64,000 nucleotides of DNA from assembly GCF_016863275.1 (NCBI RefSeq), contig NZ_BOOO01000004.1, positions 310,001 through 374,000 of the forward strand, written 5' to 3'. Positions 7,992 through 63,905 of this stretch are shown piece after piece (the first letter of the stretch is position 1; every line of letters starts with the position of its first letter). This DNA comes from Planotetraspora mira. Lineage in GTDB: Bacteria > Actinomycetota > Actinomycetes > Streptosporangiales > Streptosporangiaceae. The translations under genes and the position numbers were made by a program. The notes beneath the pieces are model-generated. The model had not been told where the DNA came from. It searched no databases and saw nothing but the letters and a program-made list of their open reading frames with translations.

Positions 7992-8425
7992 CCGGCAAAA
8001 TTATGCAACCCGTCCGAGTTCGGCAAAGCAATATCCGAGCCCTCTACGCAACTTCGCCAATCCACCCTTACCGCTGAACGGTAGGGAGTGTGCGGAGAAG
8101 CCCGGCCAGAGGCCCCGCTCCTGATTCGATCTCCGAGCGTAAGCCGACCGACCTTGCTCGGCCCGCGTTCCTGCCGCTCCACGATCGGACCACCCTCCTG
8201 AGCGGTGATGGACGCCGGTGGCTATGAGCGGCCATGTGCCCGCGTTGCAGTACTCGGTGCAGTACTGCACAGCCAGGGGCGCATGCCCGCACGTCCTCCC
8301 TGTTGATCTTCCCGTCGCAACCACCTATGGCCCCGACTTGTGCGCAGGCGATCATCCCGGAGCCGGAGGCCCCCGCCGGAGGCGGTCTTTCTTGTCCTGT
8401 CGGAGGCGTATGCCAGGCTGCGGCC
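7992..8425. other. Intergenic region between two GNAT genes
   Basis: A 434-bp stretch separating divergent acetyltransferase genes. Apart from the duplicated GCAGTACT motif at 8247-8266 I see no gene, RNA or terminator. A frame continuous with the downstream gene extends to 8234, but its residues are not family-like. Confidence 0.45.
8247..8266. repeat. Two GCAGTACT copies, 12 bp apart
   Basis: GCAGTACT occurs at 8247-8254 and 8259-8266, each containing the palindrome AGTACT. Spacing of about one helical turn would suit a dimeric repressor. No regulator gene is adjacent, so this is only a candidate operator. Confidence 0.3.
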
Positions 8426-8968
8426 ATGATGCACGAGGAGACTCCTGAGTTCCTGCAGATCACCAGCCCACTTGAGATGTCGTCCGACTTGCGACGGGAG
8501 ATGATCGAGTGCTGGGTCACGGTGACCAACGCCGGGGGCGCGGCCGGTTTTCCCTTCCCACCTGTCAACTTCGATCAGGTGGCGGTGGTCGCTGATCAGA
8601 TCATTGCCGGCCTCGCTCCACAACGCAGTCGATTCCTCCTGGCCTGCGTCGATGGGACGCTCGCTGGGTGGCTGAACGTGCGCAGCGACGCCAACCCGTT
8701 GATCGCTCACTGGGGCACGGTCCATCACGTCCAGACACATACCGGCTTCCGCGGCAGGGGCATCGGGGCCGCGCTGATGCACCGTCTGCGCCGCCTTGCG
8801 CGCGAAGAGATGGCGCTCGAACAGCTCCATCTCGCCGCCCGGGGTGGAGTAGGGCTCGAAGACTTCTATGGGCGGCTGGGCTGGAAAGAGATCGGCCGGT
8901 GGCCTGGTGCGCTCCGGCTCGCGCCCGGTGACGATCGCGACGAGATCCTGATGGTGCTTGAGCTCTGA
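8426..8968 (+). CDS. GNAT acetyltransferase
   Basis: A 180-residue GNAT protein. Motif A is HVQTHTGFRGRGIGAALMHR (about residues 108-127), containing the R-G-x-G-I-G acetyl-CoA loop, followed by LEDFYGRLGWKEIGRWPGAL, the usual FY.k.GF..... segment. The frame is open from 8234, but the ATG at 8426 gives the normal domain length; a second ATG at 8429 is equally possible. The substrate is unknown; the fold resembles small-molecule or antibiotic acetyltransferases. Confidence 0.82.
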   Translation: MMHEETPEFLQITSPLEMSSDLRREMIECWVTVTNAGGAAGFPFPPVNFDQVAVVADQIIAGLAPQRSRFLLACVDGTLAGWLNVRSDANPLIAHWGTVHHVQTHTGFRGRGIGAALMHRLRRLAREEMALEQLHLAARGGVGLEDFYGRLGWKEIGRWPGALRLAPGDDRDEILMVLEL

Positions 8969-9204
8969 CTACGTTTGGCGGTGGCGCGGGGGGCTGGCGT
9001 CGGCGAGTTCGCTTGGTACGGCGGCGCGCCGCGCCGCCGCTTGATCTTTAATAAGCACAATTCGGCAGACTGAACGTTGTCCTAGCTGTCTGTCCCGGGA
9101 CATGCCTGACGTATGTGGCTGGCGTGCGTCAGCGTCGCCAGTGGCACCCAGTACATGCCATCGACGCGCCAGTGACCAAGCACGACCGCAGTACCAGGAT
9201 CAAG

Positions 9205-9453
9205 CTAGATCCACTGCACACGGACGATGTACACCTGGCGTTGAGACTCCAGCACCAGATAGGTCATGAGCCCACGTTCTCCGAACGGCATGACCCGCAT
9301 GTTGCCATCGGGCTTACTCGGCGCTTACGGTCCGCCGGCCCACGGCTCCAACTCAATCAAGTCCAGCACTCCGACCAGATACCGCAAGGCATCCTCGGGA
9401 AGGGCCGCGATCTGGTCTTGGGCGACAGGATCGGGCTCGACGATCGAGTACAC
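9205..9453 (-). pseudogene. RelE/ParE-like toxin with internal stop codon
   Basis: Begins at GTG 9453, directly abutting the stop of the DUF6247 gene. Codons 1-42 read MYSIVEPDPVAQDQIAALPE ... LIELEPWAGGP, then a TAA (9325-9327) interrupts. The same frame continues APSKPDGNMRVMPFGERG ... TYLVLESQRQVYIVRVQWI to TAG at 9205-9207. The pattern (polar N-terminus, ALPEDAL helix, PW..P, MR..PFG, LI/YLV strands, VYIVRVQW) matches small RelE-like toxins paired with DUF6247 proteins. One point mutation (for example from TAC/TAT) explains the stop, so the toxin appears inactivated while the partner survives. Confidence 0.65.
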
Positions 9454-9798
9454 CTACCGCTCGACCCCGCGATCAGCCAGTAGTTGACGCCACGTCTTGT
9501 CGCCTCGCGGGATCGGCCGACCGGCATCGCTCGGTTCCTGGACACGAGCAGCCCGCTCGTAAAGATCTCTGCGACCCTGCTGATCCTTGATCGAATCGCA
9601 CGCGACAAGCCACCAGGTATGGATGAACTCGTTCAGCCGACCAAGGTCCAAACTGGCGCGAACCTCAGCCAAGACGACGTTCAACCCTGCGTCGAACCCA
9701 TCTCGGTCCTGCGGCACGACCAACGCTCTACGGATGGCGCGCAGGTTCTTCTCCGGTAGGGAGCCTTCGGGGGTGAACTCGTGTGGTTGCGCGCTCAT
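9454..9798 (-). CDS. DUF6247 family protein, probable antitoxin
   Basis: A 114-residue protein starting at ATG 9798. Central sequence RDGFDAGLNVVLAEVRASLD (about residues 31-50) followed by LGRLNEFIHTWWLVACDSIKD is typical of the DUF6247 family, which in actinomycetes precedes small RelE-like genes. The next gene (9453, no gap) is a disrupted RelE-like toxin, so this looks like the antitoxin half of a degenerate type II module. The open frame extends upstream to 9960, but that region is not family-like. Antitoxin role is inference from gene order. Confidence 0.65.
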   Translation of the reverse strand: MSAQPHEFTPEGSLPEKNLRAIRRALVVPQDRDGFDAGLNVVLAEVRASLDLGRLNEFIHTWWLVACDSIKDQQGRRDLYERAARVQEPSDAGRPIPRGDKTWRQLLADRGVER

Positions 9799-10042
9799 GC
9801 CGTCACTGTATGTACAGGTCCTCAGCGCGGCCCAGCCAATCAGAGGACTTGAGCAGGCGATTCGGCCTGCCGACAAACGCGCGCGTCTCCCCAGGTGATC
9901 GCGCCCTCGCCGCCTCCACCGCGTTGATCTGTCAGCACAGGACACCGAGGCCAACCGCACGATTCGCCAATGCGGTGAACGGCAAGATCACAAAGTGGTC
10001 GCGCCCAAGGCGAGTGGTGTCCAAGCGAGATCATCCGCGCCC

Positions 10043-50069: not shown

Positions 50070-50189
50070 CGTCCCGCCCGCCGGCCCGCGACGGCCGGCG
50101 GGGAATTCCGTCAGGCTCGGCTGAAACAATGCGGCCTCCGCCGGCATCCCATCCGTGACGCACCTGTCCGGATCACGACGGAGCAACGC

Positions 50190-51119
50190 ATGGACGCCTT
50201 CGACGCCGACACGCAGTGGGCCGACCTCAACAGCGACGGAACCGACGACACCCTTCTCGTCGACAACAACGGCGACGGCATCGCCGACCAGCAGTTCACC
50301 GATGGCAACAGCGACGGCATCGCCGACTCCGAGAGGTACGACCTCGACGCGGACGGCGTGGCGGACGTGGAGTACACCGACACCGACTACGACGGGACGG
50401 CCGACCAGGAGTTGTTCGACGTCGACAGCGACGGCCAGGCGGACATCCAGCTAGTCTCCGCTGATTACGCTCTGGACGACTCGTCCGGCTCCGATGACTC
50501 AGGGGACGCGGAGGACCACGAGGAAGACACCTCGGACTCCTCGGACTCGGAGACCTCAGACGACTCCGACGACTCGTACGAGTCCGTGTCCGACTCCGGG
50601 CCCGACTCCGACTCCGGCTCCGGCTCCGGCTCCGGCTCCGATGACGCTTCGGACTACTCCGGTTCCACCGGCTCGTCGGATTCATCGGACTACACGGGCT
50701 CGTCCGGCTCCTCCGACCTCACGGACGCGGCGACCCTCACCGCCGCCGAGGTCTCGCCGGCCTACGTCCCGCCGGACCCCGCTCCGCTGTTCCCCGAGGC
50801 GTCGACGGCCTACGTCCCGCCCGTGAGCGGCAGCATGGGCGGCTTCCTCGACAACCTCAACGCGCAGATGGCCGACGCCGGGACCGTCTACAGATCGGCT
50901 CTCGACCCGAACTCGGTCTCCTCCGGCGACCTGGCCGCGGCGGAGGAGCGGATCGACAACGTGGCGCAGAACTCGAGCGTGCTCGAGGGCTACACCTACC
51001 AGGACCAGGTCTACAACGACGTGATCCAGCACGACCGCGAGGTCCAGTGGTCGAACCAGGAACACCAGGCGACCACCGACGCGTGGATCGAGGCCGACCG
51101 CGCCGAGTCGGCCGAGTAG
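50190..51119 (+). CDS. Acidic protein with Ca-binding-type repeats and Ser/Asp tract
   Basis: A 309-residue, very acidic protein in three parts. Residues 5-85 hold six repeats of the D.N.DG..D type (LNSDGTDD, NNGDGIAD, GNSDGIAD, LDADGVAD, TDYDGTAD, VDSDGQAD), like dockerin or thrombospondin-3 calcium loops. Residues 95-180 are a Ser/Asp/Gly low-complexity tract. Residues 220-309 are helical. No signal peptide is visible, which is unusual for such loops. It precedes the GrpE-like gene by 53 bp and belongs to the dynamin/Hsp70 cluster. Function unknown. Confidence 0.7.
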   Translation: MDAFDADTQWADLNSDGTDDTLLVDNNGDGIADQQFTDGNSDGIADSERYDLDADGVADVEYTDTDYDGTADQELFDVDSDGQADIQLVSADYALDDSSGSDDSGDAEDHEEDTSDSSDSETSDDSDDSYESVSDSGPDSDSGSGSGSGSDDASDYSGSTGSSDSSDYTGSSGSSDLTDAATLTAAEVSPAYVPPDPAPLFPEASTAYVPPVSGSMGGFLDNLNAQMADAGTVYRSALDPNSVSSGDLAAAEERIDNVAQNSSVLEGYTYQDQVYNDVIQHDREVQWSNQEHQATTDAWIEADRAESAE

Positions 51120-51172
51120 GGCCCCGGAGGAGCCTCAGGCCAGGACAACCGGCTCGACAGGAGGACAAGGGC

Positions 51173-52357
51173 ATGAACCCCACTCGACCCGGTCACCGGG
51201 ACCGGCGAGGCCCCCGAGCGGCGACGTCCGCGTCGCCGGCGGTCAGATGCCGTCACCTCGCGGGGCCCGGCCTGCTGCTGATCGTCGTCGTCCTCACCGG
51301 TTGCGGGTCAGGAGGAACACAGGCGGAACTGGCCGCCCGCCAGGAGCCGGTGGCCGTCGTCACCACTCCGGAGAGGGAGCCGGCAGGTGACCGTGCATCT
51401 GCCGACCAGGCCGCCGCGACCCCCGGGAAGCTCCGTGGGATCACTCCCCTGAGCGTGGGCGGAGCGGCCGCCCCGGTCGAGCCTCCCCCGGTGACGTCCG
51501 ATTCCCGGGTGACGGTGAGGCCCAAGACGACCGGCGAGCCCGGGCAGGGAACCGGAGGGAAGACCAAGAAGCCGGAGGCCACCAAGAGCCCCGCGAAGGG
51601 TGGGGGTCCGGTCACGCCCGGCAAGAGCGCGACCCCGCGCGTCACCCCACCCACCGCCGACGCCACGAACCCGGCGCCCGCGACGACCCGGGTCACCACC
51701 CCTGTGCCGGTGACGCCCAGCGGCTCCTCCGGAGGCTGGCTGCTGGGCGGGCTCGCCCTCGTCCTCCTCGTCGGCGGGGTCGCTGTGGGCGCGGTCTTCG
51801 TCTCGCGCGGGCGGCGGGCGCCGCGGATGGAGGCCTGGCCTCCAGGAGTGCCCACCGTCCAGCCGTCCCATTCCGGGGGGCCCGCCTCCGTCGCGTCCGC
51901 ATGGGCGGCCGGCTCACCCGCGTCCGCGCCCACGGGAACGGCCGCACCCTCCTGGACGGCCGCACCCGGCGGGCTCGGTCATCTCGCCGGATCCCTGCGG
52001 GAGGTCGCGGACGGAGGAGTGAGCGAGGCACTGGCGCAGCAGATCGACCGGCTGCTCGCCTCCGAGCCCGGCAGGGACGCCCTCGTGGAGGCCTGCATCC
52101 GGTTCCGGGACCAACTCGGCGAGCGGCATCCCTTCCTGGCGGCCCGTCTGCTGGAGGCTCTCGGAACGGCCGGGGTCCACGAGATCCGCGCTGACGGGCA
52201 GCCGTTCGACGGGCGGGTGCACGAAGCGGTCGAGGTCGTCCCGACGGCCGACCCCCGCCTCCGGGACGTCGTCGCGAGCACCGAGCGCCCCGGATACGTC
52301 GACGGCGACCGCGTCGTGCGGGTGCCGAGGGTCGCCGTCTACCGGCTGGAACGCTGA
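51173..52357 (+). CDS. Membrane-anchored GrpE-like nucleotide exchange factor
   Basis: A 394-residue protein. The N-terminus carries a signal with lipobox-like LTGC (Cys44), then a Pro/Thr/Lys-rich linker and a membrane helix at about 188-210 (WLLGGLALVLLVGGVAVGAV). The C-terminal 130 residues are GrpE-like: LFxD-type helix region, then GQPFDGRVHEAVEVV and RPGYVDGDRVVRVPRVAVYRL, matching GrpE's F.P..HEAV... and GY...dRvlRpA.V.V. That part would face the cytoplasm and could reset the Hsp70 proteins encoded nearby. AGGAGG precedes ATG 51173. Confidence 0.78.
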   Translation: MNPTRPGHRDRRGPRAATSASPAVRCRHLAGPGLLLIVVVLTGCGSGGTQAELAARQEPVAVVTTPEREPAGDRASADQAAATPGKLRGITPLSVGGAAAPVEPPPVTSDSRVTVRPKTTGEPGQGTGGKTKKPEATKSPAKGGGPVTPGKSATPRVTPPTADATNPAPATTRVTTPVPVTPSGSSGGWLLGGLALVLLVGGVAVGAVFVSRGRRAPRMEAWPPGVPTVQPSHSGGPASVASAWAAGSPASAPTGTAAPSWTAAPGGLGHLAGSLREVADGGVSEALAQQIDRLLASEPGRDALVEACIRFRDQLGERHPFLAARLLEALGTAGVHEIRADGQPFDGRVHEAVEVVPTADPRLRDVVASTERPGYVDGDRVVRVPRVAVYRLER

Positions 52358-52367
52358 TGCGGCAGGC

Positions 52368-52913
52368 TCACGGCCGCCCGAGGGTCTCCCGCAGGGCCTT
52401 GCGCGCCCGGAAGATCCAGATCCTGACCGTGTTCAGCGGGACCTGGAGCGCGGCCGCGGTCTGCTCGTACGTGAGCCCGCCCGCCCACAGCAGGAGGGCC
52501 TCCTTGTGCGTCTCGGGGAGTGTGGCGAGCGCGCGGCGCAGGTCGACCAGGCCCGCGACGGTCTCGTCGAAACCGCTCTCCACGGCCTCCGGCTCCGCGG
52601 CCTCGGGGAACAGCAGGTCCTCGCGCGCCGCTCTGACCCGCCGCACCACCGAGCGGGCGGAGTTGCGCGCGATCACCATGACCCAGGCGGCGAACGGCGC
52701 CCGGCCCTCGAAGCGGTCGAGGTTGCGCCACACGGCGATCTGGGTCTCCTGGAGCGCGTCGAGCGCGTCCGCCCGGTTGTCCGTGAGGTGCAGGCAGAGG
52801 CCGAACGCCCTGCGCTCGAGGGGAGCCCACAGACGCCGGAAGGCCTCCGCGTCTCCCGCGCGTGCGGCCGGGAGAAGGATGTTCTCGTCGTCGCCGACTA
52901 TGGGGGCAGACAT
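52368..52913 (-). CDS. ECF sigma factor
   Basis: A 181-residue sigma-70-family factor: region 2 (LWAPLERRAFGLCLHLTDNR, LDALQETQIAVWRNLDRFEG, FAAWVMVIARNSARSVVRRV) and region 4 (LATLPETHKEALLLWAGGLT, YEQTAAALQVPLNTVRIWIF). It ends convergently 11 bp from the GrpE-like gene and starts 80 bp from the divergent small acidic gene at 52994, so it probably controls the dynamin/Hsp70 cluster. No anti-sigma gene is visible. ATG 52913 has GGGGAGG ten bases upstream; the frame is open to 53099. Confidence 0.88.
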   Translation of the reverse strand: MSAPIVGDDENILLPAARAGDAEAFRRLWAPLERRAFGLCLHLTDNRADALDALQETQIAVWRNLDRFEGRAPFAAWVMVIARNSARSVVRRVRAAREDLLFPEAAEPEAVESGFDETVAGLVDLRRALATLPETHKEALLLWAGGLTYEQTAAALQVPLNTVRIWIFRARKALRETLGRP

Positions 52914-52993
52914 CCGCCGACGACCTCCCCAGGTCCGGAAATCTGCCACGATGAGATCACGTGGAACGCCACACCGGCAGGGGATAAGCGGGC

Positions 52994-53293
52994 ATGATAT
53001 TCGACCGTAATCATGATCTCGACGGTGCGGAGCTAATGGAGTTCCAGCGTCTGCTTTACGACCCGGTCCTTTCTCCGACCGAGGAAGAAAGCACCGCAAT
53101 GTTCACTGAAACTGTCAATTCACCCGTAGACAGCCATTTCGATCCAGTCGAACATGATCCCTTCGTCTCCGATCCCGCCGAATCCGCTTACTGGGATCCC
53201 GGCGCGGAGTTCTCCCACGACGACCCCGCCGGGTGGCACGAGCACCATCACCCCCACGACGGCTACTCCGGAGACGGGGACGGCGACGGATGA
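52994..53293 (+). CDS. Small acidic His/Asp-rich protein
   Basis: A 99-residue acidic protein with no recognised family. The middle is FDPVEHDPFVSDPAESAYWD, and the C-terminus is rich in His, Asp and Gly (WHEHHHPHDGYSGDGDGDG), suggesting metal binding or an unstructured tether. AGGGGATAAG precedes ATG 52994. Its stop overlaps the start of the first dynamin gene (ATGA), so the two are made together. Codon use is slightly less GC-biased at the start of the gene. Confidence 0.65.
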   Translation: MIFDRNHDLDGAELMEFQRLLYDPVLSPTEEESTAMFTETVNSPVDSHFDPVEHDPFVSDPAESAYWDPGAEFSHDDPAGWHEHHHPHDGYSGDGDGDG

Positions 53294-55146
53294 CGCCGGA
53301 CCCCTGCGACCGGCTCAAGGAGTTGTGCGACGCCACGGCCGCCAAGCTGGCCGATCCCGGCCTGCGGGAGAAGGTCGCCCAGGTGCGGTCCAGGCTCGAC
53401 GCGCCGCTGAAGGTAGCGGTGGCCGGTTCGGTGAGCAGCGGCAAGTCCACGCTGGTCAACGCGCTTCTCGGCTACCCCGTCGCGCTGGTCGCCCCCGGTG
53501 AGTGCACGCCGTTCGTCACCCAGTACGAGTACGGCGCCGACCACGGCCGGATCGAGGTCGAGCTACGCGACGGCCGCGTCATGGTGTCGCGGCTGGAGCC
53601 GGACGACCGGCTGCCCGGCGACCTCGGCGCGCCCGTGACCGAGATCGTCCGTGCCCGCGTCCGGCTCTCCGCGGAGGCGTTGCGCGCCGTCACCGTCGTG
53701 GACACGCCGGGGATGAACACGCTCACCGCCGGGAACGAGCGTGCGGCGCGGCGGATGTTGTTCGGCACCACCGAGGACGACGACAGAGCCCAGGCGCTGA
53801 TCTACGTCCTGCGTTACGTGCAGCGGTTCGACGACGACATCCTCACCGAGTTCAAGAACCTGACCGAGGCGTGCGGCATGACGTGCGTCAACACGCTGGC
53901 CGTGCTGAGCCAGATCGACCGGCGGGGCGACGAGGACGATCCGTGGCCGACCGCGCGGAGGCTGGCCACACGGGCGTACGCGGACCTGCGCACGGCGGTG
54001 TACGACGTGGTCCCGGTGATCGGGCTGCTCGCGGAGACCGCCCGGACGCCCGTCGTCGGCCGTGAGGACATCGAGGCGCTGACCGCGCTGGCCGCGCTCG
54101 ACGAGCACAAGCTCGACTACCTGCTGCTCGACCTCAACGACTTCGCCGGCTCGCCCTACTCCCCCGTCCCCGCCGAGACGGGACGCCGTCTGGTCAGGCG
54201 GCTTCACCGGTACGGCATCCGCGCCGCCGTCTCCGCGCTCAGGAGCGGGCGGGCCGCCGACCCGGAGTCGCTCGGCCGCGTCCTGTTGGAGCGCTCCGGC
54301 TTCGGGGCGGGCACACCCCCGCAGGGCGGGACGGTCGCCGCCGGCATCACGCACTTCGCCCGCAGAGCCGGCCAGCTCAAGGCTCTGGCCGGGATCAACC
54401 AGCTCCGCCGGCTGGCCCGCGCCACGGCGTTCGGCTCGGACCGTACGACACTCGACGCACTGGCGGCCGAGCTCGACGAGACCCGGCCGATCGCGGCGGG
54501 GCTCGGCGGGCTGCGGATCTTCACGGCGGTGGAGGCGATGAGCCGCGGCCGGCTCGTGCTCGACGAGCGGGCGCAGGCGGAGTTGCTCCGGCTGGCCCGC
54601 TCGGACGACCCCGCGGCGCAGCTGGGACTGGCTCCCGGCGCGTCCCCGCAGGAGATCTCGGAGGCCGCCCGGGCTGCGTCCGCCCGCTGGCGAGGGCTCG
54701 CGACGATGGCCGAGGGCAGGGTGGGCGGCCAGCGGGCCCATGACGTGCTGCGTGTGCTGGAGGACCTGGCGTCGGCTTCTTCGGCGGCGGACGCACCCGC
54801 TCCGCCCGGGCGCGCGCCCGCGGTTCCCGCCGTGCCCGTGGACGGCGACGCCGTACGGCTGCTGCGTGCGTCACCCCTGATCACTCCGGAGGACCGGACG
54901 GCCCTCGACCACCTCATGGAGGGTAACGAGGGCGCCACCCAGGTCGGGGCTCCCGCGGGCACGGCATCCCAGGACGTCGCCGCCCTGGCCGCCGCCCTGA
55001 GCGCGCGGTTCCGCTCGCTCCTGCAGCGCCCGCTGCCGCTGCGGGTACGGCGGGCCGCCGAGACCGTGTGCGACACCTTCGCCGCCATCGCGCTCGCCGG
55101 CGCGCGGCCCGCCCAGGAGGATCCAGGACATGCCGACCATCGCTGA
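53290..55146 (+). CDS. Dynamin-like GTPase (IniA/IniC type), first of pair
   Basis: A 618-residue large GTPase. The P-loop is GSVSSGKST (residues 46-54), G3 is DTPG (138-141) and G4 is SQID (about 212-215). A long helical stalk follows. A segment LGLAPGASPQEISEAARAAS near residue 460 has the spacing of a J-domain first helix but no HPD loop. No clear membrane paddle is present, unlike its partner. ATG 53290 overlaps the previous stop, and its end overlaps the next dynamin gene by 17 bp, so the two likely form a heteromeric pair remodelling the cytoplasmic membrane. Confidence 0.87.
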   Translation: MTPDPCDRLKELCDATAAKLADPGLREKVAQVRSRLDAPLKVAVAGSVSSGKSTLVNALLGYPVALVAPGECTPFVTQYEYGADHGRIEVELRDGRVMVSRLEPDDRLPGDLGAPVTEIVRARVRLSAEALRAVTVVDTPGMNTLTAGNERAARRMLFGTTEDDDRAQALIYVLRYVQRFDDDILTEFKNLTEACGMTCVNTLAVLSQIDRRGDEDDPWPTARRLATRAYADLRTAVYDVVPVIGLLAETARTPVVGREDIEALTALAALDEHKLDYLLLDLNDFAGSPYSPVPAETGRRLVRRLHRYGIRAAVSALRSGRAADPESLGRVLLERSGFGAGTPPQGGTVAAGITHFARRAGQLKALAGINQLRRLARATAFGSDRTTLDALAAELDETRPIAAGLGGLRIFTAVEAMSRGRLVLDERAQAELLRLARSDDPAAQLGLAPGASPQEISEAARAASARWRGLATMAEGRVGGQRAHDVLRVLEDLASASSAADAPAPPGRAPAVPAVPVDGDAVRLLRASPLITPEDRTALDHLMEGNEGATQVGAPAGTASQDVAALAAALSARFRSLLQRPLPLRVRRAAETVCDTFAAIALAGARPAQEDPGHADHR

Positions 55147-57010
55147 ATCCGTCAACCAGGTGCTGCGGCTGGCCAACGAGGTGAACACCCTGGCCAGGAG
55201 GCACGGCCGCGAAGACCTGTCGGAGATCCTCGCCAAGGTGGCGGCGCGCTGGAAGGAGGACGAGACGACCATCGTGGTCGCCGGGGCGCAAAAACGCGGC
55301 AAGAGCCGGCTGATCAACTCGATGCTCGGCCGGCCGGGGCTGCTCCCCGTCGACGCCGACGTGGCGACCAACTGCTGCCTGGCCCTGCGGTACGGCCCCG
55401 CGCTGACCGCCGTCGTCACCGACCAGGTCGCGGGGAGCTTCCCGATCGACCCCGGGCAGCTCACCGACTACGCGTCGATGGCCGGCGACCCGTCACGGCG
55501 GCGCGACGTGGTGAGCGTCGACGTCACGATGAACCATCCGCTGCTGCGGGGTGTGCGCCTGCTGGACACCCCCGGCGTGGACAGCCTCACCGTCGGGCAC
55601 CGCCAGGTGACGGTCGCGACGCTCCAGCGCGCCGACGCGCTGCTGTTCACCCTCAGCGCCCAGGACCAGCCCGTGCTCCGGCACGAGCTGGAGTTCCTCG
55701 CCGAGGCCGCGGAGCGCGTGCAGGCCGTCGCGTTCGTCCTCACCAAGGTGGAGGACAGCGCCAACTGGCAGAGCCTCCTCACGGAGAACCGCGCCCGCCT
55801 GGCGGCCTTCGTCGGCGCGCCGGGCGAATCAGGAGGGCCGGGAGAGCGAATCCGGCACCTGCTCGACGCGCCCTGGCTGCCCGTCAGCGCGAAGCTCCAT
55901 GAGGCGTCGGCGGCCCTGCTGTCCATGGGAGACGCGGAGCGCGCCGACGCGCTGCGCGTCCGCAGCGGGATGGCGGCGCTGGAGGACTACATCCGCGGCT
56001 GCGCGGGCGCGCGCGAGCTCGCCAGGAGCGCCACCGTGCTCTCGGCCGCGACCTCGGTGTTGTCGGCGCTCGCCGCCGTCGCCCAGGACCGGGTCGCCGC
56101 CGGGTCCGACGACGGGACCGAGCCCGCGAACCGGCTGGCCGACGTCGAGAAGGCCCTGGCCGAGCTCGCCACGACGGCCCGGGAGCGCCGCAGGCTCGGC
56201 GCGGGCAACCAGTTCCTCGGGCAGGAGGTCGCCGGGCTCGTCCGGGCTCGTCTGGCCGAGATCCGGCGGCCGTACGAGGAGGCGATCAGCGAGCTGGACT
56301 CCCGGGCGAAGATCGACCGCTACCTGGACCAGCTTCCCGACAGCGTGGAACGCTCCCTCCAGGCCGCCTGGGACGAGATCCTCGATGAGGCGCACACGCT
56401 GACCACACAGGCGCTCAACGAATTCCTCGCGTCCCTGGGCCTCGCCCCGGCCGAGATGGACCTCGCCCGGGTCGCGATGCCCGCCGTACGAGCGCGCGAC
56501 CTGCGCATCGAGCCGTCCGCGCCCACGCGGTTCGACTTCTTCCGCGAGGGCGTCCCCGCCGCCTCGATGGCGGCCTCGATCGGGCTCATGCTCGCGCATC
56601 TCACGCCTGTGGGGTTCGTGATCGGCCCGGTGCTGGCGGCGGCGGTGATCGCCCGGCGCCGGGGCTGGGACGAGGTCCAGCGGAACCAGGCCTCGCTGCG
56701 GCGCCTGCTGACCGAGCAGTTCGCGCAGGCATCCGGCGACCTCGCGCTCGCGCTGCAGCGAGAAGTCGCGGGCTGGCGCACGGCGGTGGAGCAGACGGCC
56801 GACGAGGCGCTGGCCAAGCAGCGCCGTGAGCTGGAGAGCCGCCGGGCGGAGCTCAGGTCGGCGGCGGCCGGGGACCCGGCCGGCCGGGACCGGACCCGCG
56901 CGTCGGGCAGCGAGCGCCTCGAGACGATCACGGCGCTCAGCCGGCGGGCGGCGGACCTGCGCGCGGAGATCGCCGCCGCCGTCAACGCGATGAACGCGCC
57001 GCCCGCTTAG
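55130..57010 (+). CDS. Dynamin-like GTPase (IniA/IniC type), second of pair
   Basis: A 626-residue GTPase with P-loop GAQKRGKS (52-59), G3 DTPG (146-149) and G4 TKVE (about 207). The stalk contains coiled-coil-like helices, and a hydrophobic paddle (MAASIGLMLAHLTPVGFVIG, then PVLAAAVIA) lies near residues 478-510 for membrane insertion. A second coiled coil follows. It matches the two-gene bacterial dynamin pattern, in which one partner inserts and the other assembles. The overlap with the upstream gene shows coupling. Confidence 0.88.
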   Translation: MPTIAESVNQVLRLANEVNTLARRHGREDLSEILAKVAARWKEDETTIVVAGAQKRGKSRLINSMLGRPGLLPVDADVATNCCLALRYGPALTAVVTDQVAGSFPIDPGQLTDYASMAGDPSRRRDVVSVDVTMNHPLLRGVRLLDTPGVDSLTVGHRQVTVATLQRADALLFTLSAQDQPVLRHELEFLAEAAERVQAVAFVLTKVEDSANWQSLLTENRARLAAFVGAPGESGGPGERIRHLLDAPWLPVSAKLHEASAALLSMGDAERADALRVRSGMAALEDYIRGCAGARELARSATVLSAATSVLSALAAVAQDRVAAGSDDGTEPANRLADVEKALAELATTARERRRLGAGNQFLGQEVAGLVRARLAEIRRPYEEAISELDSRAKIDRYLDQLPDSVERSLQAAWDEILDEAHTLTTQALNEFLASLGLAPAEMDLARVAMPAVRARDLRIEPSAPTRFDFFREGVPAASMAASIGLMLAHLTPVGFVIGPVLAAAVIARRRGWDEVQRNQASLRRLLTEQFAQASGDLALALQREVAGWRTAVEQTADEALAKQRRELESRRAELRSAAAGDPAGRDRTRASGSERLETITALSRRAADLRAEIAAAVNAMNAPPA

Positions 57011-57066
57011 GACCCCTTTCGCGGGCTCGCCGCCTCCCGCCCATCCTGTACGGCCCTCGGCGGCTC

Positions 57067-59376
57067 CTACACGGCGATGCGCACCAACCGGGTGACGAAG
57101 GGACGGCTCACGCCGGGCGGGGTGTCGGGCAGGTGCAGGCAGAGCAGGCCGTGGGGGACCTTGGCCACCGGCTCGACCCATCCCGGCGCGCGGAACACCT
57201 CCGTGGCGCCCGAGGGCGTGACATGCAGGATGCGCGAGGTGCCGCCCTCACCCGATACCGCCATCCAGAGCGAGTCTCCGTCGGAGACGACCCGGGGGCG
57301 CTCCAGCGGGGCGCGGGAGGTCAGGTGCCCGAGCAGGCATTCGCGGTCATCCTGCGCGAGCACGCGGGCGCTTCCGCTCTCCGCGTCGTAGTGCAGCACG
57401 GACCAGCCCCGCGCCGGTACGACCGTGTCCATCCCGACGGCGTACATCTCCGTGCCCGCGGGGAACCACCGCAGGGCCCCGGCCCGCTGCCGCGGCACGA
57501 TCACCTGGGGCGGGGCGGGGGACGCGTCGATCTCCAGCCCGGCGTTGGTGGAGATGAACCACTTGCCGTCGTGCAGCACGACCTGCTGAAGCCAGTTGGG
57601 CGACCGGCGCTCGATACGGCTGATCTTGCCGCCGGGTTCCACCAGGCAGAGGACCTGCCAGGGGACGAAGTTCTGGTGAGCGCCGCCGAAGACGCCCTTC
57701 TTCGACTTGAACTGGCCGAGCACCACGACGCACCCCGACGATCCCACGGCGAGCGCGGCGAGGCCGCCCGTCGGGCTGTCCTGGTCGAGCAGCCGCCGCT
57801 GGCTGTTGTCCTCGTTCACGAACCACTGAGCGGTGTTGCCCAGGGGCACCGGAGGCGCCTCCTGCGCGAAGAAGCCGCCCAGGCTCACCTCGATGACGGA
57901 CAGGGATCCGGTCTCCCCCCAGGGCAGGCCGATCGCGTTGTTCACCAGCGTGGGCCGCCTGGGCTGGAAGAAGGCCCATCCGGCCGCGTCGCGGGCCAGC
58001 ACCCGCGGCTCGCTGCCGGGCGGGAGCAACTGGCCCGAACGGATGGTGAGCTCAGGCGTCAGCGTCCGCAGCCGTATGCCGTCAGGCGCCCGATCCGCCA
58101 CCACGACGCCCTCGCTCGACACCGCCCAGTCCACGACCTCACCGAACTGCAGCTCGCGATCGGCCCGCCCGGCGGCGAGGTCGATGCGCCGCAACACGTG
58201 GCGGCCCGCCTCGCCCGCGCACAGGGCGTAGACGCCCGCCGTGCTCGCGGCGACGTCGATCACGCCCTCCATGACGGGGACCATGTGGTTCTCGTGGTCG
58301 GACTTCAGCTTCCACGCGAGGCGGGCGGCACCAAGAGCGACGACGATCTTGGGATCGTCCGAGGTGTGGACCAGCTCTCCGTGGCGTTCGCGCAGGGTGG
58401 CGTGGACGAGCGGCATCCTGCTGGCGCCGCCCGTCAGGAAGATCCCGGCGAGGTCGGCCGCGGTCACCTTGGCACGTTCCAGGGTTTCGTCGAGCAGGTC
58501 GGCCGTACGCGTGACGTCGGCCTTCACCAGCCCGTCCAGATCGTCCTTCGTGATGGTGACGTCCACGTCCGCGCCGGCGATGTACTGGCTCGCGGTGCCG
58601 TACGCCGACAACGTCTCCTTGGCGATCCGCGCCTCCTCCAGGAGGTCGGCCGCGGCCGCCAGGAACCGCCTGTCGGGGTTGCCGGTCACGTCGGCGAAGA
58701 ACTCGGGCCGCGTCCGTTCCAACTGCTCTCCGAAGAAGCCATAGACCTGCTCGTCGAAGACCTCGCCACCGATCGCGTCGTCACCGCCGGGCTCGCCGAT
58801 GACCTTGAAGTCGTCGCCGTCGGCGGCGAGGACCGCGGCGTCGAACGTCCCGCCGCCGAGGTCGTAGACGGCGACCCGCTTCCCGCCGCTCACCCGATGC
58901 GTGGAGGCGTAGTGGAGGGCGGCGGCCACGGGTTCCTCGACGAGCACGATCCGCGCGTCCGGCACGACGGCCTCGCCTGCCGCCCTGAGGACGTCCCTGC
59001 GATCGTCGCGCCAGGCGACCGGGCAGGTCAGCACGACACACGACGGCATGGACCCGTTGAAGCGCACCCGGCCCTCGTTCACGAACAGCCCGAGAAGGGC
59101 GGCCAGCGCGTCCCCGACGTCGACGGGCACCCCGCCCAGGAGCATCGTCTTCTTGCCGACGTACCGCTTCGGATTGCGCTCCACCCGCTCCGGATACCGG
59201 GCCATCGACCGCTGAGCGACGCGCCCGGCGACCAGCACGCCCTGTTCATTGAGCAGAATTGTGGACGGTATCCGCTTTTCTCCACCTATTTCCAGAATTT
59301 CTATACGGTCGTCCGTCGCGATCGCTCCAGCGGAGAAACTCGTACCTAGATCGACTCCCAGGCACCACAAAGCCAT
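57067..59376 (-). CDS. Hsp70-like ATPase with a large beta-rich C-terminus
   Basis: A 769-residue protein. Residues 1-365 form a complete Hsp70/actin ATPase: phosphate 1 VDLGTSFSAG (8-17), phosphate 2 YDLGGGTFD (171-179), adenosine GIFLTGGASRMPLV (311-324). The C-terminal 400 residues are not a DnaK substrate-binding domain. They are beta-rich with recurring W/G blades (WAVSSEGVVVADRAPDG, GWAFFQPRRP, ALRWFPAGTEMYAVG, SLWMAVSGEGG), suggesting a beta-propeller. ATG 59376 is chosen; longer frames run antisense through parC. It is convergent with the dynamin pair and divergent from parC. Confidence 0.87.
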   Translation of the reverse strand: MALWCLGVDLGTSFSAGAIATDDRIEILEIGGEKRIPSTILLNEQGVLVAGRVAQRSMARYPERVERNPKRYVGKKTMLLGGVPVDVGDALAALLGLFVNEGRVRFNGSMPSCVVLTCPVAWRDDRRDVLRAAGEAVVPDARIVLVEEPVAAALHYASTHRVSGGKRVAVYDLGGGTFDAAVLAADGDDFKVIGEPGGDDAIGGEVFDEQVYGFFGEQLERTRPEFFADVTGNPDRRFLAAAADLLEEARIAKETLSAYGTASQYIAGADVDVTITKDDLDGLVKADVTRTADLLDETLERAKVTAADLAGIFLTGGASRMPLVHATLRERHGELVHTSDDPKIVVALGAARLAWKLKSDHENHMVPVMEGVIDVAASTAGVYALCAGEAGRHVLRRIDLAAGRADRELQFGEVVDWAVSSEGVVVADRAPDGIRLRTLTPELTIRSGQLLPPGSEPRVLARDAAGWAFFQPRRPTLVNNAIGLPWGETGSLSVIEVSLGGFFAQEAPPVPLGNTAQWFVNEDNSQRRLLDQDSPTGGLAALAVGSSGCVVVLGQFKSKKGVFGGAHQNFVPWQVLCLVEPGGKISRIERRSPNWLQQVVLHDGKWFISTNAGLEIDASPAPPQVIVPRQRAGALRWFPAGTEMYAVGMDTVVPARGWSVLHYDAESGSARVLAQDDRECLLGHLTSRAPLERPRVVSDGDSLWMAVSGEGGTSRILHVTPSGATEVFRAPGWVEPVAKVPHGLLCLHLPDTPPGVSRPFVTRLVRIAV

Positions 59377-59637
59377 TTCGCGGCTCCCCCACCCATATCC
59401 CACAAGCACTGAAGTGGATGGTCGCCCTTTTCCCTGAGGTTGGCAATGAATGTTGCTGAAATGATGTCCCGGGCACGGAATGTGAGATCTGCCCTTCCGG
59501 GACGAACGTGACCTCCTTGGCGAAGGCCACCTCCCGCCTTGACGCGAGCCACTCCCACCCCGGCACAAGCAGCACCAAATCGGGCAGGAACCCTGGCCAA
59601 GTCGCGACCACGCCTGGACATCGGCACAATGTTCGAT

Positions 59638-62205
59638 ATGGCCCGACGCACGACCACACCCACGCCCGACGAGGAGTTCGAGGAGCGGATCGTCGACATC
59701 GACGTATCCGCCGAGATGCGGACGAGCTTCCTGGAGTACGCGTACTCGGTCATCTACCAGCGCGCCCTCCCTGACGCCCGTGACGGACTGAAGCCGGTCC
59801 AGCGCCGCATCCTCTACTCGATGAGCGAACTGGGCCTGCGTCCGGACCGCGGCCACGTGAAGTCGTCCCGCGTCGTCGGCGAGGTGATGGGCAAGCTCCA
59901 CCCGCACGGCGACGGCGCGATCTACGACGCGCTCGTGCGGATGGCCCAGCCGTTCTCGATGCGGCTGCCCCTGGTCGACGGGCACGGCAACTTCGGCTCG
60001 CCCGACGACTCCCCCGCGGCGATGCGGTACACCGAGGCCAGGCTCGCCCCCGCGGCCATGCTCATGGTGCAGTCGATCGACGAGGAGACCGTCGACTTCC
60101 GGCCCAACTACGACGGCCAGGAGACCGAGCCCGGGGTCATGCCCTCGGCGTTCCCCAACCTGCTGGTCAACGGCGCCACCGGCATCGCGGTCGGGATGGC
60201 CACCAACATGGCGCCGCACAACCTCGGCGAGGTCATCGCGGCCGCGCGGCACCTCATCAAGCACCCGGGCGCGACACTCGACGAGCTGATGCGCTTCATC
60301 CCCGGGCCCGACCTGCCCACCGGCGGCCTGGTCATCGGCCTCGGCGGCATCAGGGACGCCTACGAGAACGGCCGCGGCACCTTCCGCATGCGGGCCAAGG
60401 CGACGATCGAGAACGTGACGCCGCGGCGCAAGGGCATCGTCGTCACCGAGCTTCCGTACAACGTCGGCCCTGAGCGGGTGGTCACCAAGATCAAGGAGCT
60501 GGTGACCGCCAAGAAGCTCACCGGGATCGCCGACCTCAAGGACCTCACCGACCGGCACAAGGGCCTGCAGCTGGTCATCGAGGTCAAGAACGGGTTCAAC
60601 CCCGAGGCCATCCTCGACGAGCTCTACCGGCTGACGCCGATGGAGGAGACCTTCGGCATCAACAACGTCGCGCTCGTCGACGGGCAGCCCCGGACGCTGG
60701 GCCTGCGCGAGCTGCTGACGGTCTACGTCGACCACCGCCTCGAGGTGGTGCGCAGGCGCTCGGCCTTCCGCCGCCGCAAGCGGGAGGAGCGCCTCCACCT
60801 GGTGGACGGCCTCATCATCGCGCTGCTGAACATCGACGAGGTCATCCAGGTCATCCGTTCCTCGGACGACTCGGCCCAGGCCCGGGCCCGGCTCATCGAG
60901 GTCTTCGAACTGAGCGAGATCCAGGCCAACTACGTCCTCGACACCCCGCTGCGCCGTCTCACCCGCTACGACAAGCTGGAGCTCGACCGGGAGAAGGAGA
61001 CCCTCCAGACCGAGATCGCCGAGCTCACCGCGATCCTCTCCTCGGAGGACCGTCTGCGCGCCGTCGTCTCGGGTGAGCTGGCCGAGATCGCCAAGACCTA
61101 CTCCACGCCGCGCAGGACCGTGCTGCTGGAGTCGTCGAACGTCGTCAGGACGGCCGCCGTTCCGCTGGAGGTGGCCGACGACCCGTGCCTCGTGCTGCTC
61201 TCGTCGACCGGCCTGCTCGCCCGTACGGCCGACGCCTCCCCCATCGGGGGCGAGGGTGAGCGGACGCAACACGACGTCCTGGTCTCCGTCGTCCGCGCGA
61301 CGATCCGCGGCGAGGTGGGAGCGGTCACGTCCCAGGGACGCATGATCCGCGTCTCCGTGCTGGACCTGCCCGCGCTGCCTCCTTCGGCGAACCCGCCCTC
61401 TCTGGCGGGCGGGCATCCCGTGTCCGAATACGTCACGCTCGAGCCGGGCGAGCACGTCGTCGGGCTCGGCGGGATCGACGTCGGCGGCCCCGGTCTCGCG
61501 ATCGGCACGGCCCAGGGCGTGGTCAAGCGGGTCCTGCCCGACTATCCCGTGAACCGCGACGACTTCGAGGTCATCGGCCTGCGCGAGGGCGACACCGTGG
61601 TGGGCGCCGTCGAGCTGACCTCCGCCGATCACGACCTCGTCTTCATCACCTCCGACGCCCAGATGCTCCGCTTCTCGGCGTCCCACGTGCGGCCGCAGGG
61701 CCGTCCGGCGGGCGGCATGGCGGGAATCCGCCTCGAGGACGACGCGCGGGTCGTCTGGTTCGGGTCGGTCGATCCGACGCAGGAGGCGCGGGTCGTGACG
61801 ATCGCGGGCTCGTCGACGGCCCTCGCCGGCACCCAGACGGGCGCGGGCAAGATGTCGGACTACGCGGAGTTCCCCGCCAAGGGCCGCGCGACCGGAGGCG
61901 TCCGCGCCCAGCGGTTCCTGAAGGGCGAGGACACGATCCTGCTCGCCTGGGCGGGTCCCGCCCCGGCCAAGGCCGTCTCCTCCACGGGCAAGCCCGTCCC
62001 GCTGCCCGAGGAACTCGGCCGCAGGGACGGCTCGGGCCTGCGGCTGCTGCACGGCGTCGCGGCGATCGGCGGCGCACTCGGAGCCGGGCCTGACGGCGCT
62101 GGTTCCGCGGACCCCGCCGGCTCGGGCTCTGACGGTGCGGGCGCCGACGGCTCACTCCTGGACGGCACGCAGGACGGCCAGGGGGAGGCGGCGCCGATCT
62201 TCTAG
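59638..62205 (+). CDS. parC: DNA topoisomerase IV / gyrase subunit A (ParC-like)
   Basis: Type IIA topoisomerase cleavage subunit of 855 residues that passes DNA duplexes for decatenation and needs ParE for ATPase. The catalytic Tyr131 is in [12 protein letters not shown]. The breakage-reunion core starts [20 protein letters not shown]; the C-terminal beta-pinwheel ([40 protein letters not shown]) lacks the gyrase-type GQRG.KG box, favouring topoisomerase IV. ATG 59638 (MARRTTTP) matches actinomycete ParC; in-frame ATG codons upstream at 59629 and 59539 have no binding site. The last 55 residues are Gly/Asp-rich. Confidence 0.9.
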
Positions 62206-62217
62206 GCCGACGTGCGG

Positions 62218-62589
62218 TCAGTCGTCGACGCAGAGACAGAACGGGTGACCCGCGGGGTCGAGGAAGACGGTGAAACCGTCGTCGGCGCCGGGTTGGTGCG
62301 CGTGCTTGACGGCCCCGAGGGCCAGTACCTCGGCCTCCGCCTCGGCCAGGTCGTCGACGGTCACGTCGATGTGGAACTGCTGCGGATGCTCGGGGTCGGG
62401 CCAGACCGGCGGCTTGTGGTCGGGAGCCCGCTGGAAGCACAGGCGGATCGGCCCGCCGTCGGACACCGTGATCCAGTCGTCATCCGACCAGACGACCTTC
62501 CACCCCACCAGCGCGGCGTAGAAGTCCGCCAGCGCCTTCGGGTCCGGGCAGTCCAGCACGATCGAGCGCATCCGTGCGATCCCACTCAT
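62218..62589 (-). CDS. VOC family (glyoxalase-like) protein
   Basis: A 123-residue VOC protein: IVLDCPDPKALADFYAALVG in the first half, FHIDVTVDDLAEAEAEVLAL and FTVFLDPAGHPFCLCVDD in the second, the last being the usual DP.GHpF.l closing motif of this subgroup. A resistance or metabolic dioxygenase role is possible; substrate unknown. AAGGAGG precedes ATG 62589. Convergent with parC, 12 bp from its end. Confidence 0.88.
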   Translation of the reverse strand: MSGIARMRSIVLDCPDPKALADFYAALVGWKVVWSDDDWITVSDGGPIRLCFQRAPDHKPPVWPDPEHPQQFHIDVTVDDLAEAEAEVLALGAVKHAHQPGADDGFTVFLDPAGHPFCLCVDD

Positions 62590-62675
62590 CGCCTACCTCC
62601 TTCGGCTCACCGGTCGAAAACGCTATACCGGTATTCCGCCCGGTGCCGGTGTGCCGGGAAAGGCCGCGTGAGTTC

Positions 62676-63905
62676 TCAGATCTCGTCCCGGGTGCGGGTC
62701 GGCAGGCCGTACGTCTCGGCCACCGGATTCCACAGGTCGACGAAGCTGCCCTTGGCGTCGCCGGCGTCCTCGGAATAGGAGATGCCGTCGTCGTAGGACG
62801 AGTAGTCCGTGATGCTGCCGCTGCAGTCGTCGTCCTGGTACGACTGGCCCGCCTCGTAGAACGCGTCGTCGGCGGCGCCGGAGGCCTCCAGAAACGCGAC
62901 CAGGTACTCCTGCAGAGACTCTCCGCCGTCGAGCGCGTCGACCTCCAGGTCGTCGGCACTGCTCGCCTGGTCGTCGCGGTCCTCGCCGATGCTCGACAGT
63001 GTGCCGAGCGCGCTGTCCATGTCCCGGCAGGCCGACAGGTCGCTGATGGCCGCGGCCAGGTCGGAGCGTGAGGAGGCGCTGTCGTCGAGGAGGTCGTCGA
63101 TCGCCTCCGCCTGCTCCTGGCCGTAGTCGTACTCCGGAGTGGGAGACGGGTCGACCACGGTCAGCCCGTCGGAGGAAGGGGATTCGTACGGGGACGGCGA
63201 CTCGGACTCCGACGGCGACTCCGACGGCGAGGCCGACGAACTCGACGACGGACTAGCGGACGGGTCCGGGGACGGACCGCTGTTGGCCGCCGCTATGCCG
63301 ACCACAAGCCCGATGACGGCGACCCCCGCCACCACGGACAACACGACGGGAAGTCTGCGGGTCCCCGTCGCGGAGGCGGACGGGTCCGGGGACGGGGCGG
63401 GGGCGCCGGCCAGGAAGTCGGACACGGGAGGCAGCCGGGCGGACGCCGGCTGCACCGGTTCCGGCTGCGTGTACGGCGGAAGCCCGGCGCCGGGCGGAGT
63501 CGGGGGGAGTTCCTCCAGCCGGGTCCTGGCCAGGATCGCCGCGCCGCGCGCCACCGCCTCCGCGTCGTCCGGTGACCTGCCGGCGCCCGCACCGAGGGCG
63601 GCGACCGCGGCGTCGGAGGTGTCGACGCGGACTTTGCTCCGGTCGAATCCGGCGGCCACGGCGGACTCCACCATCTGGCCGCGCCGCTGGGCGTCCCACG
63701 ACGCCGGGACGGCGATCACCACCATCGCCGGCGTTCCCGGGACCCGTGCCTGGGCCCGGACCCGGAGCAGGCCGAGCACGCGGGCGGGGATCTCGTTCTC
63801 GATCGGCTCGGGATCGCCGACCCCGGTGTAACTTCCGTGCGCCTCACCGACCACCAGGGCCGAACGCGTGGCGCCGAACTCGATTCCGTAAACGAGATCC
63901 GTCAC
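62676..63905 (-). CDS. Membrane-anchored protein with reduced Hsp70-like domain
   Basis: A 409-residue protein. The first 130 residues keep Hsp70-like pieces (YGIEFGATRSALVVGE as phosphate 1, VVIAVPASWDAQRRGQMVES, DTSDAAVAALGAG) but lack the phosphate 2 and adenosine motifs, so ATP hydrolysis is unlikely. A membrane helix follows (LPVVLSVVAGVAVIGLVVGI, about 185-207), then a Ser/Pro tract. A C-terminal extracytoplasmic domain of 150 acidic, helical residues contains two Cys. GTG 63905 has GGGAG. It could link the cytoplasmic chaperone partners to the cell envelope. Confidence 0.78.
   Translation of the reverse strand: MTDLVYGIEFGATRSALVVGEAHGSYTGVGDPEPIENEIPARVLGLLRVRAQARVPGTPAMVVIAVPASWDAQRRGQMVESAVAAGFDRSKVRVDTSDAAVAALGAGAGRSPDDAEAVARGAAILARTRLEELPPTPPGAGLPPYTQPEPVQPASARLPPVSDFLAGAPAPSPDPSASATGTRRLPVVLSVVAGVAVIGLVVGIAAANSGPSPDPSASPSSSSSASPSESPSESESPSPYESPSSDGLTVVDPSPTPEYDYGQEQAEAIDDLLDDSASSRSDLAAAISDLSACRDMDSALGTLSSIGEDRDDQASSADDLEVDALDGGESLQEYLVAFLEASGAADDAFYEAGQSYQDDDCSGSITDYSSYDDGISYSEDAGDAKGSFVDLWNPVAETYGLPTRTRDEI

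Follow-up and report, generated by a model that had tools for sequence, protein, structure and literature searches.

A bacterial dynamin pair linked to a propeller-bearing Hsp70 relative and a GrpE-like protein: a possible membrane-remodelling switch in actinomycetes

To our knowledge, the control of bacterial dynamins is largely open. A 64,000-nucleotide stretch of DNA from Planotetraspora mira (contig NZ_BOOO01000004.1, positions 310,001 to 374,000; hereafter the window), part of a 9.03-Mb actinomycete genome, raises the question of whether such dynamins could be governed by relatives of the DnaK-GrpE machine. Between window positions 50190 and 63905, the genes encode in order an acidic repeat protein, a GrpE-like protein, an extracytoplasmic function (ECF) sigma factor (minus strand), a small protein, dynamin 1, dynamin 2, an Hsp70-like protein (minus strand), a ParC-type topoisomerase and a 409-amino-acid (aa) protein. 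An initial annotation, made from the letters of the DNA, had read this locus as two dynamins tied to a private, membrane-anchored chaperone set under sigma-factor control. Our analysis finds that many actinomycetes carry a dynamin pair beside an altered Hsp70, and some lineages a GrpE-like protein too, which points to a dedicated ATP-driven membrane-remodelling switch.

The dynamin pair, the Hsp70 relative and the GrpE-like protein

The genes for dynamin 1 (53290..55146, plus strand, 618 aa) and the IniA-type dynamin 2 (55130..57010, plus strand, 626 aa) overlap by 17 bp, and the small-protein gene overlaps dynamin 1 by 4 bp (ATGA); because of these overlaps, the three are probably co-translated. 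Both dynamins exceeded the Pfam Dynamin_N cut-off of 27 bits, scoring 42 and 58 bits, respectively. The dynamin-2 profile matched IniA (PDB 6j72) nearly full length (profile positions 11-600, E 2e-50), and the best solved-structure matches of dynamin 1, over its GTPase part, were IniA 6j72, 5owv chain C and the bacterial dynamin-like protein (BDLP) 2j68. The P-loop and the DTPG motif were conserved in the dynamin 1 alignment. The locus thus has a dynamin pair of the IniA/IniC type, made up of neighbouring Dynamin_N GTPases that carry a P-loop and DTPG, which bears out the initial annotation of two overlapping dynamins of this type. Hydropathy revealed a hydrophobic stretch at residues ~484-502 of dynamin 2, which is likely its membrane-binding part. 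Neither dynamin matched a DO-GTPase at E 1, though Pfam has DO-GTPase models, and an N-terminal CxxC..CxxC (zinc-ribbon) pattern was found in none of the dynamins surveyed. The IniB_NTERM family had no match at E 1 among the ten window proteins scanned. At a second dynamin-Hsp70 locus of P. silvatica (loci L067:6272-7716 and L216:13237-14681), a dynamin copy broken over several frames lies beside an intact pair. Dynamin 1 of Phytohabitans flavus (L158:8168-9954) is split into two frames, 8168-8578 and 8575-9954, by a frameshift or a sequencing error.

The Hsp70-like gene (57067..59376, minus strand) encodes a 769-aa ATPase-propeller protein, with its start taken from an alignment of 14 relatives. 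It matched Pfam HSP70 over the nucleotide-binding domain only (E 1e-37, profile up to 378/599), which spans residues 1 to ~360. The ATPase motifs of this domain, whose roles we presume from the Hsp70 family, were invariant in the 14 aligned relatives. No Pfam family was found in the last ~400 aa, and the peptide-binding domain is absent, the Pfam match ending before it and a confidently modelled beta-propeller taking its place at residues 363-769 (window 57067-58290). A model of the last 407 residues, built with 26 aligned sequences, had a mean predicted local distance difference test score (pLDDT) of 91.9 and a predicted template modelling score (pTM) of 0.90. A Foldseek search of the PDB with this model at E 0.001 was evaluated for the best 50 of 355 matches, for which E went down to 5e-7, with template modelling (TM) scores of ~0.5 at best and large root-mean-square deviations. 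From their descriptions, we take these 50 to be beta-propellers (WD40, DDB1, LGI1, Rv3035, XusB and others). The C-terminal part is thus modelled as a propeller, one that resembles no template closely. A full-length model was poor (pLDDT 55.7, Foldseek matches mostly DnaK-type with low TM-scores) and was not relied on. The Hsp70 with a non-standard C-terminus described by the initial annotation is thus confirmed. Its phrase "chaperone set" stands insofar as Hsp70 and GrpE-like genes are linked to the dynamins, but the lack of a peptide-binding domain makes "chaperone" in the ordinary sense doubtful.

Ten dynamin-linked Hsp70s from other loci were hand-picked for a Pfam scan after inspection of their tails. 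Propeller domains were detected in seven (WD40 in two, PQQ_2, BamB-type, in five); one of the remaining three had a sub-threshold Sel1 match, and nothing was recognised in the other two. Other dynamin-linked Hsp70s comprise barely more than the ATPase domain, or carry a Pro-rich stretch and a hydrophobic segment. A tree was built from 85 nucleotide-binding domains, 73 of its rows being dynamin-linked (one gene of genome G070 entered twice, from overlapping loci). In this tree, 68 of the 73 formed a group that also took in a single unlinked row. The seven DnaKs and four further Hsp70s stood apart as a group at 100/100, and five dynamin-linked rows, mostly long-branched, fell on the DnaK side. 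The window Hsp70 is a member of a group distinct from DnaK. G070 (G070:C1:3176001-3214000; L065 and L066) holds another kind of dynamin-Hsp70 cluster. It contains three pairs of dynamins, with a GrpE-like gene lying between dynamin genes, five Hsp70 genes in tandem and a sixth besides, a gene resembling DO-GTPases and one for a Crp-type regulator. Two of these Hsp70s were scanned, of which one has a WD40 and the other a PQQ propeller.

The GrpE-like protein (51173..52357, plus strand, 394 aa) is one of two GrpE matches in the genome, the other being the housekeeping GrpE. It matched Pfam GrpE (E 7e-10) only at profile positions 98-163 of 165, the beta-domain, through residues 323-389. This is the part of GrpE that contacts the DnaK ATPase domain and opens it. 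GrpE proteins have a long N-terminal dimerisation helix; the window protein gave no match to Pfam profile positions 1-97, but some short helical segment may lie ahead of its beta-domain. The N-terminal part contains a lipobox-like signal (LTGC), a Pro/Thr-rich stretch and one internal hydrophobic, putatively transmembrane, stretch. In a simple hydropathy scan of stop-to-stop frames, 12 of 13 close relatives had two hydrophobic stretches, and a lipobox pattern was present in 10 of the 13. In Acrocarpospora corrugata (L054:12229-13117), the GrpE-like open reading frame has no hydrophobic stretch and the next one upstream has two, so that a gene of its own may encode the membrane part in this species.

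Linkage in the order and the class

Across its 9.03 Mb, the P. mira genome has ~6 genes or gene ends of the Hsp70 family and two GrpE genes; one of each inside 14 kb is therefore more than chance. A search for dynamin 1 at E 1e-10 covered 121 genomes of the order and gave matches in 19, near-full-length at 60% identity or more in 14. At all 14 of these close loci, an Hsp70 with the C-terminal domain was encoded within ~10 kb, and the GrpE-like gene and the acidic repeat protein were also present in 14/14; the small protein was detected in 12. Ratios of nonsynonymous to synonymous substitution (dN/dS, against P. silvatica and P. phitsanulokensis, respectively) were 0.30/0.23 and 0.13/0.23 for dynamins 1 and 2, 0.11/0.11 for the Hsp70 and 0.06/0.15 for the sigma factor. 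The values for the GrpE-like protein (0.36/0.53), the acidic protein (0.13/0.67), the small protein (0.65/0.21) and the 409-aa protein (0.63/0.46) were obtained in the same way.

A survey of the class was performed with the dynamin-2 profile, which matched at least 73 of 394 genomes (three candidates scored per genome). Beyond the seven close ones, 60 loci were taken from 55 of the other 66 genomes, and nine of the 11 genomes left out belonged to one family, f6. Linkage was defined as a distance within 8 kb, and a non-DnaK Hsp70-family gene as one with E below 1e-15 and less than 50% identity to the genome's own DnaK. A dynamin-1/dynamin-2 pair was present at 52 of the 60 loci, the other eight having unpaired dynamins. 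Among these 52 class pairs, 41 had a linked Hsp70-family gene, 9 a GrpE-like gene, 44 either and 6 both; where the flanks extended at least 6 kb on each side, the figures were 35/42 for Hsp70 and 6/42 for GrpE. At the same cut-offs, the unpaired dynamins had neither (Hsp70 0/8, GrpE 0/8). A linked Hsp70 was found in 11 of the 12 families having pairs.

A third set, the named survey, consisted of the 78 loci ranked best by similarity to the query in a contig scan, 77 of them with a pair; close relatives are over-represented in it and several genomes are common to the other sets. Of its 77 pairs, 59 had an Hsp70, 48 a GrpE-like gene, 44 both and 14 neither. Thirteen of the 14 with neither fell in the Actinoplanes/Paractinoplanes/Amorphoplanes group, and the other (L180) lies on a 6-kb contig. 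These 13 Actinoplanes-type pairs (L197, L198, L200-L202, L204, L205, L207, L210, L212, L213, L215 and L217) adjoin a large protein of ~900 aa; the one scanned (L197:7208-9634) had LuxR-type helix-turn-helix and AAA-like matches, perhaps another mode of control.

The position of the GrpE-like gene varies: in the window's family it comes ahead of the dynamin genes, but in Actinomycetospora, Parafrankia, Nonomuraea and others it is nested between them, lying there on the same strand in 15/77 named and 6/52 class pairs. The most telling orders were dynamin 1-Hsp70-GrpE-dynamin 2 (L068) and dynamin 2-Hsp70-GrpE-dynamin 1 in an Oscillospiraceae metagenome-assembled genome (L196), whose GrpE match is weak (E 1e-7). 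Gene order thus varies yet the linkage persists, which argues against a merely static inherited block. In the converse search, 17 of 18 loci with Hsp70 matches of at least 140 bits had dynamins; the exception, in G094, had none in 20 kb. A J-domain protein (L195:5021-6286) was seen beside a dynamin-GrpE-dynamin locus on a 7.4-kb contig, with no Hsp70 before the contig end. Collectively, the identities of the genes, the domain swap, the linkage and its conservation are observed, and the gene set is confirmed as real and not a chance cluster. The neighbourhood comparison across actinomycetes proposed by the initial annotation came out in its favour: as a rule, a homologous dynamin pair has an Hsp70-family gene close by, and some pairs have a GrpE-like gene.

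Accessory genes and regulation

The acidic repeat protein (50190..51119, plus strand, 309 aa) has six Ca-binding-like D-x-N/D-x-DG repeats, counted by eye, beyond which come an acidic stretch of Ser and Asp and then more C-terminal sequence. Many of its relatives are shorter, at ~80-140 aa, and it had no Pfam family above the cut-off. The small His/Asp-rich protein (52994..53293, plus strand, 99 aa) is conserved among relatives in its N-terminal part and had no family in Pfam or NCBIfam scans; its identity as IniB was rejected, there being no IniB match in the NCBIfam scan. The ECF-type sigma-70 factor (52368..52913, minus strand, 181 aa) matched Pfam Sigma70_r2 (1e-12) and r4_2 (2e-12). All three proteins are present as the initial annotation had described them.

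A sigma gene was encoded within 8 kb at 12 of the 14 close loci, with a partial match slightly further off at a thirteenth (L053), and near 46/77 named pairs, but near only 7/52 class pairs. No dyad common to the acidic-protein, small-protein and Hsp70 genes was found in a search of their upstream regions; the matches obtained were uninformative, being overlapping small-protein/sigma leaders or of the GC-rich acidic type. The leader of the acidic-protein gene (50070..50189, plus strand) contains a conserved TGAAACAAT block. Among 24 acidic-protein genes of 23 close loci, the TGNAACAA form of the block was present 64-83 bp before the acidic-protein match in 21, against a background of 19/390 over all called genes of the same loci, acidic genes included. 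We take the TGAAACAAT/TGNAACAA block to resemble an ECF -35 element. Only the acidic-protein gene has a conserved block of its own, and a promoter common to the whole set was rejected. No anti-sigma factor was recognised among the neighbouring genes scanned around 52368-52913. Sigma-factor control of the set is therefore circumstantial, nothing tying the TGNAACAA block to the set's own sigma factor, and as originally written the claim was not supported, given the scarcity of sigma genes near class pairs and the lack of a common promoter motif.

The 409-aa protein (62676..63905, minus strand) has a truncated Hsp70-like N-terminus in which the DLGGGTFD region is missing. Its resemblance to Hsp70 is weak (Pfam 10.6 bits against a cut-off of 20.6; NCBIfam HscA 16.8 bits, E 0.0017). 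Among the close loci it was full length in the window and in P. silvatica (G060) and fragmentary in G097. Overall it was limited to three Planotetraspora species, apart from Microbispora fragments and a single short match in L087. The initial annotation had described a membrane-anchored, reduced Hsp70; one hydrophobic stretch and the weak match agree with this, but a genus-level distribution places the protein outside the conserved set, and it was rejected as a core part. The parC/gyrA-type topoisomerase gene (59629..62205, plus strand; Pfam DNA_topoisoIV 3e-153) was present in the 20-kb stretch of only 4 of the 14 close loci, and in the named set accompanied one group of ten loci. We rejected it as a member of the set; it is a bystander, as had been supposed.

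Proposed mechanism and comparison with known systems

We consider the best explanation to be a membrane-remodelling dynamin machine run by two nucleotide switches, and regard its chances of being right or wrong as evenly balanced. From knowledge of the family, the two dynamins would work as a heterotypic pair of GTPases, coating the cytoplasmic membrane and bending or sealing it. The Hsp70 relative, having kept its ATPase and exchanged the peptide-binding domain for a propeller, would no longer be a peptide-gripping chaperone but an ATP/ADP-gated adaptor, which may dock on the dynamin coat or on the coat's target and drive assembly or disassembly. Hsc70 acts on clathrin coats in a comparable manner. 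The GrpE-like protein would be the private exchange factor of this Hsp70. In the window's lineage, where it is predicted to be tethered by its signal/lipobox and transmembrane stretch, resetting of the Hsp70 would be limited to sites at which the coat touches the envelope. Accessory roles may fall to the acidic protein with its Ca-type repeats and to the small co-translated protein, and the ECF sigma factor probably switches on the acidic-protein/GrpE unit when the envelope is stressed. In this scheme we infer the physical interactions, the direction of effect and the inducing signal. The suggestion of the initial annotation that the Hsp70 assembles or disassembles dynamin filaments may fairly be drawn. 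We offer more tentatively, and with rather more doubt than confidence, a fuller statement: that an Hsp70 lineage apart from DnaK has been refitted as a dynamin switch with an exchangeable propeller or tail, reset by a GrpE beta-domain that is membrane-anchored in the window's lineage, for ATP-gated coat assembly at the envelope in Actinomycetota and sporadically beyond.

Several observations weigh against the two-switch machine. Co-location is not interaction. Among the class pairs, 11/52 had no linked non-DnaK Hsp70 and 43/52 no GrpE-like gene within 8 kb. In family f6, which is ini-type, the Hsp70 matches were weak (15/17 pairs, best per locus E 3e-39 to 5e-19). The Actinoplanes-type pairs, 13 of the 77 named, have neither Hsp70 nor GrpE, so dynamin pairs can do without the set, and at L084 and L088, which have ample flanks, a GrpE-like gene lies between the dynamins with no Hsp70 within 8 kb. 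One of two other genomes of the same genus (G104) had no dynamin-1 match at E 1e-10. The control provided by the unpaired dynamins is weak, because these are remotely related and flanks of 6 kb on each side are available for only four of them. The exchange activity of the GrpE-like protein is only predicted from its sequence, since the match is limited to the beta-domain. Most GrpE-like proteins nested between dynamin genes have no hydrophobic or transmembrane stretch, so the membrane-anchored GrpE-like factor of the initial annotation holds in the window's lineage and not for most nested proteins elsewhere. A J-domain protein was rejected as a member of the set: 144 loci yielded one clear case outside a dnaK operon (L195), besides the dnaK-operon DnaJ of L118 and a weak match in L188.

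The main rival is an antiphage or conflict system, in which the dynamin pair would be a membrane effector like the LeoA/LeoBC pair of the Eleos system, with the Hsp70-propellers as diversifying sensors. We judge it unlikely, though it deserves serious attention. In PADLOC, LeoA and LeoBC matched dynamin 2 (E 1e-19 and 3e-14) and LeoA matched dynamin 1 partially (3e-12). The patchy distribution in the order (19/121 genomes) is consistent with such a system, as are the five tandem Hsp70 genes, with at least two kinds of propeller, near three dynamin pairs in G070. Relatives of a DO-GTPase-like protein occur in 9/144 loci, the one scanned scoring over the Pfam cut-off, and published DO-GTPase conflict systems include HSP70 and GrpE, according to the available part of PMC7159879. 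Against it stand a gene order that is stable in the window's lineage, where most of the set is under purifying selection, the linked sigma factor, the absence of a toxic effector domain among the set's Pfam matches, and dynamins without a DO-GTPase match in the window or an N-terminal zinc-ribbon pattern in those surveyed.

It is quite improbable that the Hsp70-propeller is instead a cytosolic stress sensor for the sigma factor, making no contact with the dynamins and sharing their neighbourhood as one regulon. Propellers are common as scaffold or sensor domains, and the sigma gene accompanies most close loci (12/14) and many named pairs (46/77), but in the class it is near 7/52 pairs against 41 for Hsp70, and the nesting of GrpE-like genes between dynamin genes in both surveys also speaks against this reading. 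We give little credence to the idea that Hsp70 and GrpE are ordinary dedicated chaperones folding aggregation-prone dynamins; the conserved ATPase motifs would suit it, but the peptide-binding domain and, as a rule, a J-domain partner are missing. Chance clustering was rejected by the order and class surveys. The Actinoplanes-type pairs without the set are what such a neighbourhood would predict, but ~0.013 Hsp70-family genes are expected per 20 kb, as estimated from this one genome, compared to the 41 of 52 class pairs that have one, and we regard chance as having virtually no prospect of being correct.

If the two-switch dynamin machine is real, it would parallel, in bacteria, the action of Hsc70 on clathrin coats and offer a directly testable way into IniA/IniC-type dynamins. 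A further consequence would be that the Hsp70 ATPase can be re-aimed by exchanging its substrate domain for a propeller.

Mycobacterial iniBAC (IniR, IniB, IniA, IniC) resembles the set in its IniA/IniC-type pair, and the same dynamin profile found loci with an IniR-like (L089) or an IniB-domain (L111, family f6) neighbour. The available part of PMC5760070 describes a dnaK-like gene beside iniR in M. smegmatis. The window's set differs in having no IniB domain; in f6, moreover, the weak Hsp70 matches usually set in ~100 residues late and are accompanied by a hydrophobic stretch, and a GrpE-like gene was near 1/17 pairs, inside a dnaK operon. In the "chaperone" clade of cyanobacterial BDLPs, compared here by description only, some dynamins have a DnaK-domain protein encoded downstream, and the available part of the source mentions no GrpE, propeller or sigma factor (PMC5827413). 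According to the available text of PMC6104087, the product of a dynamin gene adjacent to BDLP1 includes a DnaJ-like domain. The DO-GTPase/GAP1-N2 systems of actinobacteria and firmicutes have, in the part of PMC7159879 available, often-paired GTPases together with HSP70 and GrpE, and some of the systems include another HSP70 that has no peptide-binding domain; unlike the window, they have DO-GTPases, often zinc ribbons, GAP1 and FNIII/DnaJ proteins, and the word dynamin is absent from the paper's main text. With the housekeeping DnaK-GrpE machine the set shares the Hsp70 nucleotide-binding domain with DLGGGTFD and the GrpE beta-domain; it differs in lacking a peptide-binding domain, a J-domain partner and the GrpE profile outside 98-163, and in its separate tree group. 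Eleos shares a dynamin-like pair; we know of no Hsp70 or GrpE in it. Among the open-licence PubMed Central papers listed in a search of titles and abstract starts, none linked a dynamin to GrpE or described a dynamin-linked Hsp70-propeller. The linkage of a dynamin to a DnaK-type protein is thus already known, while the link to GrpE, the replacement of a domain by a propeller and the wide occurrence of the association are, as far as searched, new.

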